Assembly (NCBI GenBank): GCA_018819925.1
Contig: JAHJPG010000032.1
Coordinates: 1-36,668 of the forward strand
DNA: 36,668 bases
DNA from: Pseudomonadota bacterium
GTDB taxonomy: Bacteria > Desulfobacterota > Desulfarculia > Desulfarculales > Desulfarculaceae
Direction: 5' to 3'
The position numbers and the translations under genes are program-made. Below the pieces are notes generated by a model. The model saw only the letters and a program-made list of their open reading frames with translations, did no database searches and was not told where the DNA came from. This document shows positions 2,482 to 17,149 of this stretch, in pieces. The stretch's first letter is position 1. Each line of letters opens with the position of its first letter.

Positions 2482-3840
2482 ATGGCTTTGCCCAAGAGTG
2501 AAGTCGCCGGGATTATTCTGGCCGCCGGTCTTTCCACCCGCTTTGGCGGGGAGAAGCTGACCACCCCCCTGGCGGGACGCCCCCTGGCCTTTTGGGCCAT
2601 CGAGGCCGCCCTGACATCACGCCTGGGGAGGGTGGTCCTGGTCACCCGGCCGGAATTGGCCGGTGAATTGGCCGCCACCTTCCCCGGCCTGGAGTTGGTG
2701 CTCAACCACCAGGCCCATCAGGGGCAGGCATCGTCCCTGCGCCTGGGGCTGGAAGCCCTGGGTCCCGGCCACAGCCATGCGCTTTTCCTGTTGGCCGACC
2801 AGCCTTTGTTGACCTCGGACTTGATAAACAGCTTCGTGGACAAGGCCGAATCAGGAATCGGCCTGGCCGCTCTGGCCGGCAGCGAGTCCTTCTCTCCCCC
2901 CACCCTGTTCGCCCGCGGCTTTTGGAAAGACCTGGGGCAAGCTCAGGGCGACTCCGGGGGCCGGGAAATCCTGCGAGCCCATGCCGGCGAGGCCGCGTTC
3001 CTGACGCCAAACTTTCCCCTGGCCGGGCTGGACGTGGACACCCCCGAACAGCTTGGACGGGCCGAGGCGGTGCTCTGCCAACGCTTCAGCCGGGCCCTGG
3101 AGTTGGAGCACGGGGATATGGTGAGCCTGGTGGGCGCGGGCGGCAAAACCAGCCTGCTGGAAACCCTGGCCTCGGAGCAGGCGTCCGCTGGCCAGGCGGT
3201 GTTGGCCACCACCACCACCCATATCTTCCGCCCCAGCGGCCAGGTGCTTTTGGAGCCCCACGAACAGTGGCTGCCAGAGCGCATAGCCCGGCGCCTGGCC
3301 CCCGGCTGGTGCCTCACCGTGGCGGCCGGCGCCACCTCCGGCGAGGACCGCCCCAAACTCAAGGGCCTCACTCCCCAAAGCGTGGACTGGCTATGGGAAG
3401 AAGGAGTGGCTCCGCTCATCCTGGTGGAGGCGGATGGGGCGCGCCGCTTGCCTTTGAAAGCTCCGCGAACCCACGAGCCGGTGACCCCTCTGGCCACCAC
3501 CGTGCTGGTGGGCGTCCTGGGACTTTCCGCTATGGGGCAGCCGGTGGATGATGAGCATGTGTTGGCCGTGCCCGAATTCTGCGCCCTCACCGGGGCCGCG
3601 CCGGGGGAAGCCGTGACCCCCGCTCATCTGGCCGCCCTGGCGGCGCATCCCAAGGGCCTGTTCAAAAAGGCCCCGCCCCGGGCCCGCAAGGCGTTGGTGC
3701 TGAACCAGGGCGAGTTGCCCGGCGCTGCCGAGGCGGCTCGGCAGGTCGCCGAAATGGTCAGCGAACAAGAACCCGCCCTGAGGGTGCTGCTCACCAGCTT
3801 GCAGCGGGGTGAGTGCGAAGTTTTGTTGGAGGGAGACTAG
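2482..3840 (+). CDS. MocA-like MPT cytidylyltransferase fused to YqeC (selenium-dependent Mo hydroxylase accessory)
   Basis: This 452-residue protein has two parts. Residues 1-195 are a MobA/MocA-type nucleotidyltransferase with LAAGLSTRFGGEK at 13-25 and LLADQPLL at 103-110; MocA makes molybdopterin cytosine dinucleotide. Residues 205-452 match YqeC, with a P-loop-like GAGGKTSL at 218-225, TTTTHIFRP at 243-251, and EADGARRLPLKAP further on. YqeC is a marker of selenium-dependent molybdenum hydroxylases, where a labile selenium ligates Mo. Seen: the two families in one frame. Inferred: the fusion couples dinucleotide formation to selenium insertion in the Mo hydroxylase encoded nearby at 6219-9816. 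Its stop codon overlaps the convergent UPF0280 stop by 3 bases. An AAGGTG ribosome-binding site precedes the ATG. Function of the YqeC half is not biochemically settled. Confidence 0.9.
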   Translation: MALPKSEVAGIILAAGLSTRFGGEKLTTPLAGRPLAFWAIEAALTSRLGRVVLVTRPELAGELAATFPGLELVLNHQAHQGQASSLRLGLEALGPGHSHALFLLADQPLLTSDLINSFVDKAESGIGLAALAGSESFSPPTLFARGFWKDLGQAQGDSGGREILRAHAGEAAFLTPNFPLAGLDVDTPEQLGRAEAVLCQRFSRALELEHGDMVSLVGAGGKTSLLETLASEQASAGQAVLATTTTHIFRPSGQVLLEPHEQWLPERIARRLAPGWCLTVAAGATSGEDRPKLKGLTPQSVDWLWEEGVAPLILVEADGARRLPLKAPRTHEPVTPLATTVLVGVLGLSAMGQPVDDEHVLAVPEFCALTGAAPGEAVTPAHLAALAAHPKGLFKKAPPRARKALVLNQGELPGAAEAARQVAEMVSEQEPALRVLLTSLQRGECEVLLEGD

Positions 3841-4724
3841 GCGGCCAAGAGTTTTGCCGCGGCAGCCGGTCCGGCCAAGGTGATGCGCTGCCCCTGATCC
3901 AGCAGCAGGGCCTCGCCCTGCACCAACACCAGGCAGCCCACGATGAGTCCCCGGCGGTGCAGGCGGCGGGCCAAGTCCCTGGCCCCGCGCAAGGCGGCCA
4001 GACGCTGAGTGCGCGGCAAAGGCCCCACCTTGGTGGTGACCTTCTGCCCGCCCAACCCACAGTCAGGATCGATGTCTTGCGCCGGGGCGGACTCTGAACC
4101 CGGGTCCTGGGCCTGGGCCGCGTTACCCAGGGCGGTGGCCGCTGCATCGGCCTGGGCCGCGCTGGTGGCCCATACCGTGACCAGATCGGCCACCCCCGAG
4201 CTGTGGCTGCGGCCCCGCCAGCCGCTGCTGGCCACCCCGCCGATGCCGTCGCCGCCGCGCAGGTTCAGGCGGCCCATAAGGGGTGAGGGCTCCCCCTCCG
4301 GCGCGTCGGGCGGCTTCACGCCCACCCGCAAGGATTGGCCCGGCGACAGGCGCACCGCGATGTCCCCGCCGTTGTTCACCACCACCCGGTCCGCGCCCAG
4401 GGCCAGGGCGAACTCGGCCACCTCGTCGGCCACCGCCCCGGCCACCGCCGCCAACGGAGCCAGGCCGCTGTCCACCGTGCGGCAGGCCCGGGCGGCCCGT
4501 TCCACCACCGGCGGCAGGGGACGCCCAGCCGGCAGCTCGCGCACCCGGCGGCGCACGTAGCCCTGAAACTCGGCCAGCACCTTGAGGCAACGCAAAGCCG
4601 CCCGGGCGGCTTGGGCGGCCATCACCGGGCGGGGTTCGCCGCCTTGCCAGGCGGCTATGGTCAAGGTCATGGGGCCCCAGTCCACCAGGACCAGGTCGGG
4701 GCGTATTACTTGGACCGGATCCAA
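3837..4724 (-). CDS. UPF0280 family protein (ApbE-like fold)
   Basis: This protein of up to 295 residues is the last gene of the minus-strand operon. Family features are the segment RTVDSGLAPLAAVAGAVAD, followed by ADRVVVNNGGDIAVRL and a C-terminal SSGVADLVTVWATSAAQADAAATALGNA stretch split here by its loops. UPF0280 proteins belong to the ApbE-like fold group, whose best-known members transfer FMN to proteins. The start is ambiguous: TTG at 4724 keeps the family N-terminus (VIRPDLVLVDWGPM), GTG at 4685 and ATG at 4670 are shorter alternatives, and none has a clear ribosome-binding site. It follows the Hnr-like gene, with a short overlap if the TTG is used. The pairing suggests a maturation role for that flavoprotein, but no function is proven. 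Confidence 0.85.
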   Translation of the reverse strand: MDPVQVIRPDLVLVDWGPMTLTIAAWQGGEPRPVMAAQAARAALRCLKVLAEFQGYVRRRVRELPAGRPLPPVVERAARACRTVDSGLAPLAAVAGAVADEVAEFALALGADRVVVNNGGDIAVRLSPGQSLRVGVKPPDAPEGEPSPLMGRLNLRGGDGIGGVASSGWRGRSHSSGVADLVTVWATSAAQADAAATALGNAAQAQDPGSESAPAQDIDPDCGLGGQKVTTKVGPLPRTQRLAALRGARDLARRLHRRGLIVGCLVLVQGEALLLDQGQRITLAGPAAAAKLLAA

Positions 4725-6218
4725 GGCACCGGTTCCGTGGCCAAGAAAGGCTTCACCGCCTCCATGTGGCCGCCCATTTGTTTGTAGTCGCTCAGGCGCA
4801 TGGTGTATTCGATGGGAGCCACCGTGGCCGGGGTGGGCACCCAGGTGAAGCCGCCGGGCCGCACCTTCTCCACGTCCACGTAGAAGGTGATGCCGCCTCC
4901 GGGCAGGACAAACACCTTGGCCCCGCCGCAGGTGAGCACCGCCTTGGCCGCGTGCACCGCCCGGGTGAGGCGCAGGGGATAGCGCACCGCCCCGGCCCGG
5001 GCCGAGCCCCCTGCCCCGCCCACGTACACCGCCGACACCCGCGACTCCTGGCAGGTTTCGGCCAGGGCGGCCACCGCCAGGCGGGCCTTTTCGGTCAACT
5101 GGGTGAGCTTGAACTTGCCGTCGTCGCCCAATACGAACATGGCCGCGTTCTGGCCGGTGGTCTCGGTGATGAGCAGGGTGGACCCCGGAGGTGTGAGGCC
5201 GGTGTCCACCTTGGCCACGATGTCCAAGGGATTGTCCAGGCCGGTGCCGCCCCAGCCCTTGCCGTGGGTGCCGAAATAGCGCCCCGGGGTGGAGCGCTTG
5301 AAGCACAACTCCACCCCGCCCGGGGTCAGGCCCAGGCAGCGCCCGGCGGCGTGATGGCTGAACAGGCTGGTGATGTGGTGGTCCAACACCACCACCTCGT
5401 CGGCGGCCTCCTTGAAAAACGGCGCGAACAGCCCGGCCGAGGCCGAGCCGCAGCCCACCCGCATTTTTTCCACCAACTCTCCGTCGATGACCGGAGGTTG
5501 CCCCACCTGGATATCCAGCTTGGCCCCGCCCTTCACCTTGAGCCGAACCGCCTCGCGGTTGGCTATGGCCGCCACCGCCCGGGCGGCGGCAAAGCCGTGC
5601 CGGCCGGTGAGGCGGTTGACTCCGCCGATGGCCAGCATCTTGGAGCCGTACTCCTCGGTTTCCACCATGCCCACGGTACGGCCCTCGAAACTCACCGCCG
5701 CGCCTTCGGGGCCCACCTCCAGATCGGTGTCGATCTTCACCTTGAGCCCGGAGTAGGACAGCGGGGCCTCGGTGACCACGGTGACCACCTCCACTCCGTC
5801 CCGCTCGTGGCTAACGATATAGGGGGCGGGCACGTAGTCGGGATAGGTGCCCCCGGCTCCGATGGCGGTGATGCTGGGGCGCTCGATGATGAGCTCCGGT
5901 TCGGGGCCCACCTCCCGGGCCACCTCGGCGTAGGTTAGCAAGGGGCGGGTGCGTATCAGCTCCTGGCCGTGGTTGGAGTAGCGGCCGCAGGCTCCGGTCA
6001 GCCCCTCGGGAACCCGGCAGCCCACCGGGCAGTGACCGCACTCCTGGGCGCCGGGCACTGGGATCACTTCATCGATCACCGCCTCACGGGGGCACACTCT
6101 GAGGCAGGTGCGGCATTCCACGCATCCCTGGTCGATAACCGCCTTTTTGTCGCTCAAAGACACGGCGGCCACCGGGCAGTCCTTAACGCACAGGCCGCAG
6201 CCGTTGCAGCGCTCCAGA

Positions 6219-6229
<11 letters not shown>
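4706..6229 (-). CDS. hnr: 6-hydroxynicotinate reductase-like Fe-S flavoprotein
   Basis: The predicted reaction is ferredoxin-dependent reduction of 6-hydroxynicotinate to 1,4,5,6-tetrahydro-6-oxonicotinate. The 507-residue protein opens with two ferredoxin motifs, C8-C11-C14-C18 and C36-C39-C42-C46, then a third cysteine group, C64-C67-C71-C81. This matches the two [4Fe-4S] and one [2Fe-2S] clusters reported for the Eubacterium barkeri enzyme, which also has covalently bound flavin. The remaining 400 residues are glycine-rich and match that family only. The start is GTG at 6229, overlapping the end of the Mo-subunit gene by 11 bases, so translation is probably coupled. Position between a nicotinate dehydrogenase-like enzyme and UPF0280, with an enamidase divergent, strongly supports the call. 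A related substrate such as another hydroxypyridine is the main alternative. Confidence 0.85.
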
Positions 6230-8476
<2,247 letters not shown>

Positions 8477-8480
<4 letters not shown>

Positions 8481-9333
8481 GACCGCGCCTCCAGTTGGGC
8501 CCAGGCGCGGCTCAAGGCTCGGGCGGTGATTCGGGCGATGGCCGGGACCTTGTAGGTGGCCGAAGCACGCCAACCGCATACGTCGGTGAAGTGGCCGGCC
8601 GCCTTCTCGCCCGCCGCCCGCCACAACTCCGGGCCGGGCGTCGCGCCCTGAATTAGCTCTTCCACGTCGCGTAGGCGGCGTGGGGTGGGAAAGCAGGACC
8701 CCAGCACCACCCGGGGGTCGGACAGCTCCCGGTCCAGGCACGCGGCCAGATTCAGCCGGGACACGGCCACCTCTTGGCGGCGTCCCACCTTGAGGAAGGC
8801 CTGGCCCCTGGTCTCGGCCGGCGGGTCCAGGGCATAGCCCAGGATCAGCTCGCCTTGGGCCAGGGTGGTTTTGTTGGGAGCGGTGATGAGTTCGCCGAGA
8901 GGGCAATGGCGCATCCCTCCCAGGGAGGCGATCTCGGCCACCGCGTCCAGGGCCACCAGGGCGCTGAGGCCGTCGGCCGCTGGCGAGGCGTTGGCCACGT
9001 TGCCGCCGATGGTGGCGGTTTGGCGCACCTGCATGGAACCCACTGTGGCCGCGGCCTGGGCCAACACCGGGATGCGCCGGGCCACCCGGGGGTCTTCTTC
9101 CAAGCAGCGGAAGGTGAGCCCGGCCCCGAGATAATAAGCGGGGCCGTCCAATTCCAGGCGCCCCAGTTCGGGCAGGCGGGTTACGTCCAAAATCAGTTCG
9201 GGAAGCTCTGTGCCGCTCAGGCGGGCCTGGCGCAAGGCCAGCATCAGGTCCGTGCCGCCGGCCAGCACCTTGGCTCCTGGGTGGGACAGGGCATTGAGGG
9301 CTTCATCGAGGGTGGCGGGGGTCAGGAAGCGGC

Positions 9334-9337
<4 letters not shown>
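8477..9337 (-). CDS. FAD-binding subunit of molybdenum hydroxylase (NdhF/CoxM type)
   Basis: This 286-residue protein is the flavin subunit that passes electrons from the 2Fe-2S subunit to the acceptor. Both FAD pyrophosphate-binding signatures of the CO dehydrogenase/xanthine dehydrogenase family are present: AGGTDLM at 26-32 and TIGGNVANASPAAD at 109-122. Length is normal for a separate FAD subunit, and a CO_deh_flav_C type C-terminus follows (KVGRRQEVAVSRLN). Its start overlaps the stop of the 2Fe-2S gene by four bases (ATGA at 9337-9334), and its stop overlaps the start of the Mo subunit the same way. The three subunits are therefore translationally coupled in the order S-F-LM. No 4Fe-4S insertion typical of 4-hydroxybenzoyl-CoA reductase is seen. 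Confidence 0.93.
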
Positions 9338-9816
<479 letters not shown>

Positions 9817-13280: not shown

Positions 13281-13826
13281 TTGGAAACACTCGGCAGCAA
13301 ACTAAAGGCATTGAGGCTGGCCAAAAGTCTCACCCTGCAACAGGTGGCCAGCCAGGCCCAGTGCACGGCGGCGCATCTGTCGCAGATAGAGAACGACAAG
13401 GCCTCTCCCTCCATAGCGACACTAAAGAAAATAGCCGCGGTCCTGGAAGCCAGGATCGTGGATTTTTTTGACGACGAAACCGAAGACGATCCCGTGGTGT
13501 TGGACCCATCCCAATGGGTGCAGGTGAGCCTGCCCCGCTGGAAAGCGGACATCAGGCAAATGGTCCGCATGGTCAAACACCGCCACATGCAACCATTTTA
13601 CACCGTGATCCAGCCTGGTGGCGGCACTCGGGAAAATTATCACCACATGGGCGAGGAATTTGGCCTGGTGCTGGAAGGACAGCTTACCTTGCGCTTGGGC
13701 GATGATATCCATCAGGTGCCTGCCGGTTCCTCCTTCTACTACTCCTCCAATCAACCCCACGCCTGGACCAACGATGGTAAAAAACCTTGCCGGGTGGTGT
13801 GGGTGGTTACACCCCCTAGCTGGTAA
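13281..13826 (+). CDS. XRE-family transcriptional regulator with C-terminal cupin domain
   Basis: This 181-residue regulator has an N-terminal lambda-repressor type helix-turn-helix at about residues 5-62 (LQQVASQAQ, AAHLSQIENDKASPS). A cupin_2 sensor domain at about 105-181 shows EEFGLVLEGQLTLRLGD and SSNQPHAWTNDG, with His residues that may bind a metal. XRE-cupin proteins usually control nearby catabolic genes, with the ligand bound in the cupin barrel. The start is uncertain. TTG at 13281 fits the family N-terminus, but the AAGGA at 13274-13278 is only two bases away; an ATT at 13278 or CTG at 13260 are weaker options. It lies 27 bases before the enamidase gene, in the same direction, and divergent from the TRAP operon. 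It is the obvious local regulator of both. Confidence 0.9.
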   Translation: METLGSKLKALRLAKSLTLQQVASQAQCTAAHLSQIENDKASPSIATLKKIAAVLEARIVDFFDDETEDDPVVLDPSQWVQVSLPRWKADIRQMVRMVKHRHMQPFYTVIQPGGGTRENYHHMGEEFGLVLEGQLTLRLGDDIHQVPAGSSFYYSSNQPHAWTNDGKKPCRVVWVVTPPSW

Positions 13827-13853: not shown

Positions 13854-15011
13854 ATGAGCTCGATATTGGTAAAAAACGTGGGGCTTATGCTTAGCGGCGA
13901 AGTTGAAAACCCCATTCTGGAAGCGGACAGCCTGGTCATAGCCGACGGCCTGATACAAGAGGTCGGCTCCGGCCTCGGCGCTCCCCAAGGCGCCACGGTG
14001 ATCGACGCCCAGGGCGCGGCGGTCACTCCCGGCCTCATCGACTCCCACTGCCACGTGGTCCTGGGCGACTGGACCCCCCGGCAACAAATGATGAATTTTC
14101 TGGACTCCTCCCTGCACGGCGGAGTGACCACCTCCATCAGCGCCGGAGAGGTGCACCTGCCCGGCCGCCCCAAGGATGCCCTGGGCGCCAAATGCCTGGC
14201 CATCGTGGCCGCCAAGAGTTGGGCCGTGGTGCGCCCCGGCGGAATGAAGGTCTTGGGCGGAGCCCTTATCTTGGAAAAGGGCCTCACCGAGGCTGACATC
14301 GAAGAGTGCGCCCAGGCCGGAGTCAAGGTGATCGGCGAAGTGGGGCTGGGCTCGGTGAAGGAGCCGGCCGAGGCGGCGGAGATGGTGGCCTGGGCCAAGG
14401 CCCGGGGCATGACCGTGATGATGCACACCGGCGGCACCTCCATACCCGGGTCATCGGTGGTGGGGGCCGAGCAGATCATCGCCACGGGGCCCTCGGTGGC
14501 CAGCCATATCAACGGCGGCCCCACCGCGGTCAGCCTGGACGAGGCCAAGCGCATCATCGACCAGACCGACATCGCCATCGAGATCGTCCAGTGCGGCAAC
14601 ATGCGGCGCGCCGCCGAGGTGGCCCGCTACATGGATGAAACCAAGCAGTGGGACCGGGTGATCTTCGGCAACGACGCACCCAGCGGCACCGGAGTGGTCA
14701 CCCTGGGCATCCTGCGCAACATGGCCCTGGTGGCCAGCCTGGGCGGGGTGGCCCCGGAGCTTACCGTGGCCATGGCCAGCGGCAACACCGCCAAGCTCTA
14801 CGGCCTCAACCGGGGCCGCATCGCCGCCGGCCTGGAAGCGGACCTGGTGTTCATGGACACCCCCATCGGCTCTCCGGGCAACGACGTGTTGGGAGCCCTG
14901 GCCGAAGGCGACACTCCGGGCATCAGCATGATCCTGATCGACGGCAAGGTGGTGGTCAAGGTAAGCCGCAACACCCCGCCGGCGATGCGCAAGGCCCAGG
15001 TGGTCTCTTAA
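13854..15011 (+). CDS. ena: Enamidase (amidohydrolase family)
   Basis: Predicted reaction: hydrolysis of 1,4,5,6-tetrahydro-6-oxonicotinate to 2-formylglutarate and ammonia, by a cytosolic binuclear metal enzyme. The 385-residue length equals my recollection of the E. barkeri enamidase, and the resemblance runs end to end. Shared stretches include LHGGVTT, GRPKDA, ALILEKGLTE, MHTGGTSIPGSS, SHINGGPTA, VIFGNDAPSGTG, LGILRNM and SRNTPPA. The expected metal ligands are present in order: H65 and H67 (HxH), E162, H191, H218 and D274. The E. barkeri enzyme is described as an Fe-Zn member of the amidohydrolase family. A GGAG ribosome-binding site precedes the ATG. It follows the regulator closely and the AA_synth gene comes 30 bases later. 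This is the best diagnostic gene of the cluster. Confidence 0.92.
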   Translation: MSSILVKNVGLMLSGEVENPILEADSLVIADGLIQEVGSGLGAPQGATVIDAQGAAVTPGLIDSHCHVVLGDWTPRQQMMNFLDSSLHGGVTTSISAGEVHLPGRPKDALGAKCLAIVAAKSWAVVRPGGMKVLGGALILEKGLTEADIEECAQAGVKVIGEVGLGSVKEPAEAAEMVAWAKARGMTVMMHTGGTSIPGSSVVGAEQIIATGPSVASHINGGPTAVSLDEAKRIIDQTDIAIEIVQCGNMRRAAEVARYMDETKQWDRVIFGNDAPSGTGVVTLGILRNMALVASLGGVAPELTVAMASGNTAKLYGLNRGRIAAGLEADLVFMDTPIGSPGNDVLGALAEGDTPGISMILIDGKVVVKVSRNTPPAMRKAQVVS

Positions 15012-15041
15012 TTCATTGTCCATTCGCGAGGAGATTTGAGC

Positions 15042-15620
15042 ATGCAAATCCGCAAGCTGGTAACCATAGTGGAGGAAACCTTGCAGGAGGCGGGCAAGCA
15101 AGTCAAGCCGGCCACCCGCAAAGCCGCTGCCATCGCGGTGATCAAAAACCCCTTTGCCCATGAATACGCCGAGGACCTCAGCCAACTGATGGAAATTGGC
15201 GAAGAGTTGGGCGGCATGTTGGGCAACAAGGCCCGCGAGGCCCTGGGCATCGCCCCCGAGCAGTGCGAGAGCTACGGCAAGGCGGCCATCGTGGGTCTTA
15301 AGGGCGAGTTGGAGCACGGCGGGGCCATCCTGCACCCCAAGCTGGGCGCCCCATTCCGCAAGGCCTTGGGCCGTGGCCTGGCCTTGATCCCCTCGGTTAA
15401 AAAACGCGGCCCGGCCGGTTGCACCATCGACGTGCCCCTGAACCACAAGGACGCGGCATTTATCCGCTCCCACTTTGACGGCATGACCGTGAGCGTTGAA
15501 GACGCGCCCATGCCCGACGAGATACTGGTGGCCCTGGTGGTCACCGACTCGGGCCGCCCCCTGCCCCGCATCGGCGGCCTTACCAAAGAAGACGCAAAGT
15601 ACGAGGACGGCCTTCGCTAG
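15042..15620 (+). CDS. AA_synth family (DUF1185, pfam06684) protein
   Basis: This 192-residue protein matches the family labelled amino acid synthesis (DUF1185), whose members have structures but no firm activity. Recognisable stretches are IRKLVTIVEETLQEAGK at the N-terminus, NPFAHEYAEDL, the AIVGLKGELEHGGAILHP segment, and the GRPLPRIGGLTKED C-terminus. The ATG at 15042, eight bases after GAGGAG, is preferred over a TTG six bases upstream. It lies between enamidase and aldehyde dehydrogenase, so it probably acts on, or protects, an early ring-opened or reduced intermediate. It could for example hydrolyse or isomerise a lactam. That role is speculation. Soluble, with no signal peptide or membrane segment. 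Confidence 0.85.
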   Translation: MQIRKLVTIVEETLQEAGKQVKPATRKAAAIAVIKNPFAHEYAEDLSQLMEIGEELGGMLGNKAREALGIAPEQCESYGKAAIVGLKGELEHGGAILHPKLGAPFRKALGRGLALIPSVKKRGPAGCTIDVPLNHKDAAFIRSHFDGMTVSVEDAPMPDEILVALVVTDSGRPLPRIGGLTKEDAKYEDGLR

Positions 15621-15658: not shown

Positions 15659-17149
15659 ATGGCCATACTACCCGAAGTCAAGAGCCATTACGGCCGCCTG
15701 AAGCTTCTCATCGGCGGCGAGTGGGTGGAATCGAAGTCCGACATCATAAACAAAACCACCAACCCGGCCACGGGGGTGGAGATAGCCGAGTTCCCCACCG
15801 CCACCAAACAAGAGGCACGGGCGGCGGTGGAGGCGGCCCAGCAGGGCTTCGAGGCCATGAAGGGCATCGCCCTGCGCGAGCGGGCCCGCATGCTCTTTGA
15901 CATGCGCCAGATATTCGACCGCGAAGCCGACACCCTCAGCCGGGTGCTTACCCAGGACCACGGCCGCACCTTCAAAGAGGCCGCGGGCTCGGTGCGCCGC
16001 TCCATCGAGAACATCGAGTCCGCCTGCTCCGCCGCCTACGGCATGGCCGCGCGCAACGAGCACATCGACAACCTGGCGGGCGGCATCGACATGTGGCTGA
16101 CCTGGGAGCCGTTGGGGCCCTTCCTCATCGTCACCCCGGGCAACATTCCCATGCACGCCTGGAGCTCCTTTGTGCCCTACGCCCTGGCGGCAGGCTGCTC
16201 GGTGGTGGTGAGCCCCTCGCGCCAGGACCCGGTGGCCGCCGAGTACATGAGCAAGGTGGCCCTGGAGGCCGGCTTCCCGGCGGGCGCCATCAACCTGATC
16301 CACGGCGGCCGGGATGTGAACAGCTACATCCTGGAGCAAAAGGAGATCGAGGGCATCGGCTTCATCGGCTCCACCGGAGCGGGCCTGGATCTTTTCGCCC
16401 AGTGCGGCAAACTGGGCAAGACCAGCAGCCTCAACGGCAACGGCAAGAACACCGTGGTGATCATGCCCGACGCGGACATTGACTCCTGCCCGGCCTACGT
16501 GCGCCAAGGCTGCTTCGGGATGACCGGACAGCGCTGCCTGGGCTCTGACAACGTGGTGATCATGGGCGACAAGGCCCGTTACGAAGAAGTCAAGCAGGCC
16601 CTGGTGGCCAACGCGGCCTCCATGAAACTGGGCTACGGCCTGGACGAGTCGGTCACCATGGGCCCCTATGCCACCCCGGCGGGCCGCGACAAGGTTTGGG
16701 CCTGGGTGGAGCGCGGCCTGGCCGAGGGCGCCAAGATGGTGCTGGACGGCCGCACCATGCTTCCGGCGGACTACCCCGACGGCTACTTCATGGGCCCCAC
16801 CATCCTGGAAGACGCCGACATAGACATGGATATTTGCAAGGAGGAGGCCTTTGGCGCGGTGGCGGCCCTTATCCGGGCGGACAGCCTGGAGCAGGTCATC
16901 GGCTGGATCAATTCCAAGACCGACCTGGGGCACAGCGCCTGCATCATGACCGCCAGCGGAGCCAACGCCCGCAAGTTCGCCCGCGAAGTCAACGTGGGCA
17001 ACGTGGGCATCAACGTTGGCGTGCCCCAGCCCTACGCCTTCTTCCCCTTGGGCTCCAAGCGCAAGAGCTTCCTGGGCGCGGCCAAGTCCCGCATGGCTTC
17101 CATGCGCCTGTTCCTGGACGAAAGGACCGTCACCGCCCGCTGGGTGTAG
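15659..17149 (+). CDS. Aldehyde dehydrogenase, methylmalonate-semialdehyde dehydrogenase-like
   Basis: This 496-residue NAD-dependent aldehyde dehydrogenase has the catalytic Cys at C293 (GMTGQRCLGSD). It has the cofactor-site stretches IVTPGNIPMHAW near 157-168 and GFIGSTGAG near 234-242. The usual general-base Glu of the ELGGK motif is missing; the equivalent segment reads SLNGNGKNTVVIMPDAD, with Asn at 259. Loss of that Glu and the PDAD segment resemble methylmalonate-semialdehyde dehydrogenases, which are CoA-acylating and decarboxylating. Its likely substrate here is 2-formylglutarate from the enamidase, or glutarate semialdehyde formed by decarboxylation. The product would be glutaryl-CoA or glutarate. 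An AGGAGGGG ribosome-binding site precedes the ATG. It is the last gene before a strong terminator. The family is certain; CoA dependence is inferred. Confidence 0.9.
   Translation: MAILPEVKSHYGRLKLLIGGEWVESKSDIINKTTNPATGVEIAEFPTATKQEARAAVEAAQQGFEAMKGIALRERARMLFDMRQIFDREADTLSRVLTQDHGRTFKEAAGSVRRSIENIESACSAAYGMAARNEHIDNLAGGIDMWLTWEPLGPFLIVTPGNIPMHAWSSFVPYALAAGCSVVVSPSRQDPVAAEYMSKVALEAGFPAGAINLIHGGRDVNSYILEQKEIEGIGFIGSTGAGLDLFAQCGKLGKTSSLNGNGKNTVVIMPDADIDSCPAYVRQGCFGMTGQRCLGSDNVVIMGDKARYEEVKQALVANAASMKLGYGLDESVTMGPYATPAGRDKVWAWVERGLAEGAKMVLDGRTMLPADYPDGYFMGPTILEDADIDMDICKEEAFGAVAALIRADSLEQVIGWINSKTDLGHSACIMTASGANARKFAREVNVGNVGINVGVPQPYAFFPLGSKRKSFLGAAKSRMASMRLFLDERTVTARWV

Follow-up and report, generated by a model that had tools for sequence, protein, structure and literature searches.

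An aldehyde dehydrogenase (ALDH) gene at positions 15659-17149 of a 36,668-nucleotide contig from a member of the Desulfarculaceae (JAHJPG010000032.1, called the window below) is probably dedicated to nicotinate catabolism, and its product, designated type A, would convert 2-formylglutarate to glutaryl-CoA in an NAD+- and CoA-dependent reaction for which no biochemistry is available. The wider proposal, likely in our judgement though slightly less firm, is that anaerobic nicotinate breakdown has a third lower branch, which needs no B12, unlike the long route known from Eubacterium barkeri: one dedicated ALDH would oxidise, decarboxylate and CoA-activate 2-formylglutarate. This branch would predominate in Desulfobacterota and be an alternative among Bacillota, with enzymes resembling methylmalonate-semialdehyde dehydrogenase (MMSDH), of types A and B, in the same operon slot. 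The genomic case for an ALDH route to glutaryl-CoA is strong, and no enzyme assay exists. Established at the level of sequence are the ALDH family, its motif, the conservation of the operon, the absence of the E. barkeri branch and the presence of the glutaryl-CoA branch.

The nicotinate operon

The three enzymes that define an E. barkeri-type upper pathway, namely nicotinate dehydrogenase, 6-hydroxynicotinate reductase (Hnr) and enamidase (Ena), are all encoded in the window. The first is specified on the reverse strand by a molybdenum subunit with fused large and medium chains (6219..8516), whose residues 13-422 correspond to chain A (323 bits) and 440-758 to chain B (246 bits) of the E. barkeri structure 3hrd, by an FAD subunit (8477..9337; NF043083 XdhB-type, 158.5 bits, and operon position) and by a 2Fe-2S subunit (9334..9816), recognised as an open reading frame syntenic with the other two. 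Hnr, a 4Fe-4S protein (4706..6229, reverse strand), is 43% identical over 463 residues to the annotated 6-hydroxynicotinate reductase of CP099606. The enamidase (13854..15011, forward strand) matches the E. barkeri enzyme 2vun with 473 bits, the next match reaching 40 bits, and was assigned the conversion of 1,4,5,6-tetrahydro-6-oxonicotinate to 2-formylglutarate and NH4+, the former being the enamidase product according to the biochemistry of E. barkeri (PMC9304392). After this step, the ALDH is the sole further catabolic enzyme recurring in nicotinate operons; a decarboxylase, a CoA-transferase and an acyl-CoA dehydrogenase were sought as conserved downstream neighbours and not found.

An HTH and cupin protein (PuuR-like, HTH_3 and Cupin_2; 13281..13826, forward strand), which adjoins the ALDH or the enamidase in many loci, probably regulates the operon. 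A TRAP transporter (DctM, DctQ and DctP, the last with PF03480; 9830..12741, reverse strand), whose genes keep the same order in many ALDH loci, is presumed to import nicotinate. Two further genes are of unknown role: AA_synth (PF06684, DUF1185; 15036..15620, forward strand), with 243.6 bits to PF06684 and 257.5 bits to 2qtp, and the ApbE-like UPF0280 (3837..4700, reverse strand), with 195 bits to NF003322 and a weak PF02424 match. Since both are found in aerobic nicotinate clusters as well as in those of the E. barkeri and ALDH types, they most likely serve the common upper pathway; UPF0280, which directly follows Hnr in all three kinds of cluster, could be a maturation factor for that enzyme.

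Two observations concern the surroundings of these genes. At 2482-3840, upstream of the molybdenum hydroxylase genes, a MobA/MocA-like nucleotidyltransferase appears fused to a YqeC-like domain (judged by eye, without a family search) and is possibly involved in cofactor maturation. In other genomes, a hydrolase resembling nicotinamidase/isochorismatase, probably with a signal peptide (by eye), adjoins the ALDH (L109:1692-2429 and 11 other loci), which suggests that nicotinamide also feeds the pathway.

Family placement of the aldehyde dehydrogenase

The 496-residue product of the ALDH gene was characterised by its family and PDB matches, its conserved residues and its clade. Among curated NCBIfam families the highest score belongs to TIGR01722, the CoA-acylating MMSDHs (338.7 bits, the runner-up having 256), and the nearest solved structures are MMSDHs as well (5tjr, 304.5 bits; 1t90, 282.7), the first non-MMSDH reaching 185. 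These matches bear out the first-pass annotation, which had called the enzyme MMSDH-like and whose coordinates, forward strand and LNGNGKN motif were exact. The TIGR01722 score remains under the curated cut-off of 448.5 bits, so that this criterion for membership of the family is not fulfilled. An AlphaFold model (mean pLDDT 84.7) also places MMSDHs on top in structure comparison, narrowly (Z 49.1-50.3), with ALDH9 and BADH following at no more than 48.5, close enough that this comparison alone does not discriminate.

In the ALDH tree, from which three rows in a wrong reading frame were left out, type A forms a clade of its own (support 100/100). With the root on SSADH-like ALDHs, this clade lies outside type B and the MMSDH group and is sister to them, a position that the support of 88/76 does not firmly resolve. 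Scoring below the family cut-off and branching outside MMSDH, type A is best named as a separate subfamily: it works like an MMSDH and should not be filed as one, its CoA use and product being inferred. In the phylum sample, some 40 loci carry an ALDH at least 54% identical to that of the window, after which identity falls sharply to 40% or less; the conservation of the reading frame and the constancy of its neighbours rule out a chance ORF.

Active site and substrate region

The enzyme carries the motif SSLNGNGKN and the active-site stretch GQRC. The position of Glu268 in hydrolytic ALDHs is occupied by Asn259 in 13 of 13 type A sequences, as expected from the earlier remark that the general-base Glu is missing; it is Glu in all five SSADH-like sequences, Gln in type B, and Leu, Gln, Asn or Ala in MMSDHs. 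The catalytic Cys293, Arg292 and Arg114 are invariant in type A, N259 being conserved in the clade too, and the combination of a catalytic Cys with no Glu268, a criterion of MMSDH membership, is therefore met.

From work on B. subtilis IolA, two conserved Arg residues are said to bind the substrate carboxylate in MMSDH. This second criterion is fulfilled in type A by the invariant R114 and R292. The latter is also present in SSADH-like ALDHs and thus does not discriminate; Arg114 does, being conserved in types A and B and replaced by Glu in the SSADH-like sequences. Furthermore, the substrate region is rebuilt in type A (PGNIPMHAWSS), and the Trp of 22/22 MMSDH-group and 5/5 SSADH-like sequences is replaced in type A by Ser170 and in type B by Tyr, which would leave room for a larger substrate.

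Four residues (C285, H425, R478 and D487) are common to types A and B only. As proof of a common substrate they were rejected and are only a lead, since between 2 and 6 such positions are common to other pairs of clades, which makes four no unusual number.

Distribution of types A and B

With type A defined as the ALDH clade at 54% identity or more, it was found in 38 of 395 Desulfobacterota genomes, 37 of which also encode an enamidase; in the one that does not, the ALDH lies on a 6.7-kb contig. In a scan of GTDB representatives, 63 of 80 loci have the ALDH next to a core nicotinate gene, most of the others being on short contigs. Type A loci span Desulfobacterota, Bacillota, one Armatimonadetes MAG and one gammaproteobacterial MAG, and the named carriers include Desulfocarbo indianensis SCBM, Dethiosulfatarculus sandiegensis SPR and strain NaphS2.

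Seen from the enamidase, a clear copy of which is present in 58 Desulfobacterota genomes, 37 genomes have type A and 13 have type B (together 50/58). Type B is another MMSDH-like ALDH, 31-37% identical to type A and forming its own clade (100/100). In 11 of its 13 genomes it belongs to the enamidase locus; one has it on a separate contig with the operon order unchanged (L350), and one on a small contig (L308). As with type A, its gene is flanked by DctM and NdhS or else follows AA_synth. One type B member passes the TIGR01722 cut-off (469.0 bits) and another falls just below it (440.9). The occupation of one operon slot by two separate MMSDH-like lineages is the strongest sequence argument that this step needs MMSDH-type chemistry.

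Of the eight remaining enamidase genomes, six have loci that end at contig borders. Two (G241 and G114) are real exceptions: on long contigs they show neither ALDH type nor the methyleneglutarate mutase, and they count against the proposal. The nicotinate cluster of G241 (L224, from 12640 onward) has an Hgd-like gene (53%) after UPF0280, without type A, type B or mutase, and is possibly yet another lower branch.

The E. barkeri lower branch

The first-pass annotation had reported no E. barkeri lower-pathway gene, and within the window none of the Hgd-Hmd-Mgm-Mii-DmdAB-Dml genes was found. It had also regarded the presence of this pathway elsewhere in the genome, together with its expression on nicotinate, as a possible refutation; the methyleneglutarate mutase has no match in the whole genome, with 13 Bacillota genomes serving as positive controls, nor in any of the 395 Desulfobacterota genomes. 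A clear enamidase is encoded by 16 Bacillota, namely those 13 with the mutase and three that lack it, which have type A (G441) or type B (G560 and G728). Moreover, genes for the mutase, Hmd and Mii are in none of 120 type A loci (some genomes being duplicated across two collections).

The full lower pathway is represented by a Bacillota cluster (L325) with a 3-hydroxyisobutyrate-dehydrogenase-like Hgd, Hmd, the aconitase-like DmdA with DmdB, a B12-binding mutase, an isomerase (475 bits to the 3-methylitaconate isomerase 3g7k), a MutL-type protein and a lyase; Hmd and the mutase were named from place, size and domain. Judged from gene content, the ALDH and mutase branches are complementary, and they exclude each other in those Bacillota genomes that were tested. 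Some Bacillota clusters (L313/L314, L321) contain two enamidase genes several kb apart.

Fate of glutaryl-CoA

A glutaryl-CoA dehydrogenase encoded elsewhere had been named as a check on the route, and the genome of the window (4.03 Mb, 96% complete) does contain one (C112:4079-5251), which scores 707.9 bits with NF045552 against a cut-off of 470 and 599.6 bits with the Desulfococcus enzyme 3mpi. Directly after it lies glutaconyl-CoA decarboxylase subunit A (L343:5271-7007; 759 bits to 3gf3); contig C96 encodes a Na+-pump beta subunit. Dehydrogenase and decarboxylase genes are thus both present, as the glutaryl-CoA branch demands (the biotin carrier subunit was outside the search), which gives glutaryl-CoA an exit. 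The assignment of the dehydrogenase rests on the NF045552 and 3mpi scores. A second, glutaryl-CoA-dehydrogenase-like copy, on contig C90, is the weaker candidate (386.7 bits to 3mpi). The C90 copy belongs to a region (L212:3933-14106) with a TAXI TRAP transporter, a CaiB-type CoA-transferase, an MmdA-like carboxyltransferase, a ligase, a thiolase and GntR, likely a dicarboxylate operon.

Across genomes, glutaryl-CoA dehydrogenase-like matches of at least 365 bits are present in 22 of 25 type A genomes, compared with 7 of 28 that lack enamidase (Fisher p 5e-6), and in 8 of 11 type B genomes; the query was the C90 copy, which makes the bit threshold only a proxy. In the Bacillota survey no mutase genome (0/13) reaches 340 bits and three ALDH genomes do, two of them barely (345 and 346). 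Lifestyle confounds this survey, which is therefore supporting evidence only. Against the proposal count the lack of a strong match in the type A Bacillota MAGs G443 and G444, the location of the glutaryl-CoA genes outside the nicotinate operon and the occurrence of such genes in enamidase-negative genomes as well; a strong match is also lacking in the type A genomes G196, G103 and G177.

Proposed route and alternatives

In MMSDH, oxidation comes first, and the thioacyl-enzyme formed from malonate semialdehyde decarboxylates before transfer to CoA. By analogy, Cys293 would attack the aldehyde of 2-formylglutarate, and hydride transfer to NAD+ would leave a thioacyl-enzyme, chemically a beta-carboxy thioester, which would shed the former ring carboxylate as CO2 and hand the glutaryl group to CoA, giving overall glutaryl-CoA, CO2 and NADH. 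Two enzymes with genes outside the operon, glutaryl-CoA dehydrogenase and a glutaconyl-CoA decarboxylase, would then dehydrogenate and decarboxylate this product to crotonyl-CoA, and the net yield from nicotinate would be 2 acetyl-CoA, 2 CO2 and NH4+, without B12 and with no ATP spent on CoA activation. The substrate, CoA use, decarboxylation and product of the ALDH are all inferred from the chemistry of its family.

Glutaryl-CoA could also be reached with free glutarate as an intermediate. The first-pass annotation had named a glutarate-type route in Azorhizobium, which the literature confirms for A. caulinodans (PMC3511419), and a similar sequence here would run from 2-formylglutarate to glutarate semialdehyde, spontaneously or by another enzyme, to glutarate by a hydrolytic ALDH and to glutaryl-CoA by a CoA-transferase or ligase. 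The genome offers candidates for the last step in the CaiB-type CoA-transferase, whose top family is succinate-glutarate CoA-transferase (189 bits, with a cut-off of 750), and in an acyl-CoA ligase adjoining the second glutaryl-CoA-dehydrogenase-like gene. The ALDH itself, however, lacks the Glu268 that hydrolytic ALDHs use and that the SSADH-like sequences keep, the nicotinate operons have no conserved decarboxylase or CoA-transferase, two aerobic Hnr/enamidase clusters that were inspected have no ALDH, and a type B enzyme in the same slot passes the cut-off for CoA-acylating MMSDHs. This route is considered unlikely.

More doubtful still is a CoA-acylating ALDH that acts after decarboxylation, on glutarate semialdehyde. 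3-Oxo acids such as 2-formylglutarate can decarboxylate spontaneously, and neither the end product nor the enzyme family would change; against it stand the order of steps in the MMSDH family and Arg114, kept in types A and B where SSADH-like enzymes have Glu. That the gene encodes an ordinary MMSDH, acting in the metabolism of valine, inositol or beta-alanine and lying beside the operon by chance, is hardly credible, since, even with MMSDHs as the nearest characterised relatives, type A is a clade locked to nicotinate genes across several phyla and the genome has another ALDH (L002) above the MMSDH cut-off (512.9 bits), so that the operon enzyme is not the housekeeping copy.

The direct conversion of 2-formylglutarate to glutaryl-CoA by an MMSDH-like ALDH, as the first-pass annotation had interpreted the gene, is accordingly the supported reading: its predictions that could be checked in sequence held, and CoA dependence and product remain putative.

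If true, sulfate reducers and syntrophs would gain a complete nicotinate route to acetyl-CoA that needs no coenzyme B12 and saves the ATP equivalent otherwise spent on activation with CoA. Type A could serve as a marker gene for predicting nicotinate degraders, a testable function would replace the likely annotation as methylmalonate-semialdehyde dehydrogenase, and two competing lower branches upon one upper pathway offer a clean comparison. No description of an ALDH-type nicotinate branch was found in the open-licence literature; subscription journals were outside the search, and priority is unproven.

Comparison with known systems

With the MMSDHs (MmsA/IolA/ALDH6A1) type A shares the ALDH fold, the catalytic Cys, the absence of Glu268, Arg114 and, as proposed, a substrate of the 2-substituted malonate semialdehyde class. 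It differs from them in having PGNIPxHAWSS for PFNFPMMVPxW, Ser for Trp170, Q457/Y459 and the NGNGK motif, as well as in its score below the family cut-off, its separate clade and its operon with nicotinate genes.

With E. barkeri the window has in common nicotinate dehydrogenase, Hnr and enamidase, leading to 2-formylglutarate, together with the UPF0280 and AA_synth genes; unlike E. barkeri, it has no Hgd-Hmd-Mgm-Mii-DmdAB-Dml set and its genome no methyleneglutarate mutase. Azorhizobium caulinodans and the Bradyrhizobiaceae resemble it in that the upper pathway passes through THON and the lower route is of a C5, glutarate type, with the difference that glutarate is a free intermediate in Azorhizobium (PMC3511419). 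The two aerobic clusters inspected, from Pseudomonadota plasmids, have two AA_synth genes and no ALDH. Finally, the genome has side by side the genes for a glutaryl-CoA dehydrogenase and GcdA, counterparts of Acd of Desulfococcus multivorans and of the Na+-pumping glutaconyl-CoA decarboxylase; these enzymes are known from other degradation routes, and their role in nicotinate catabolism is proposed here.
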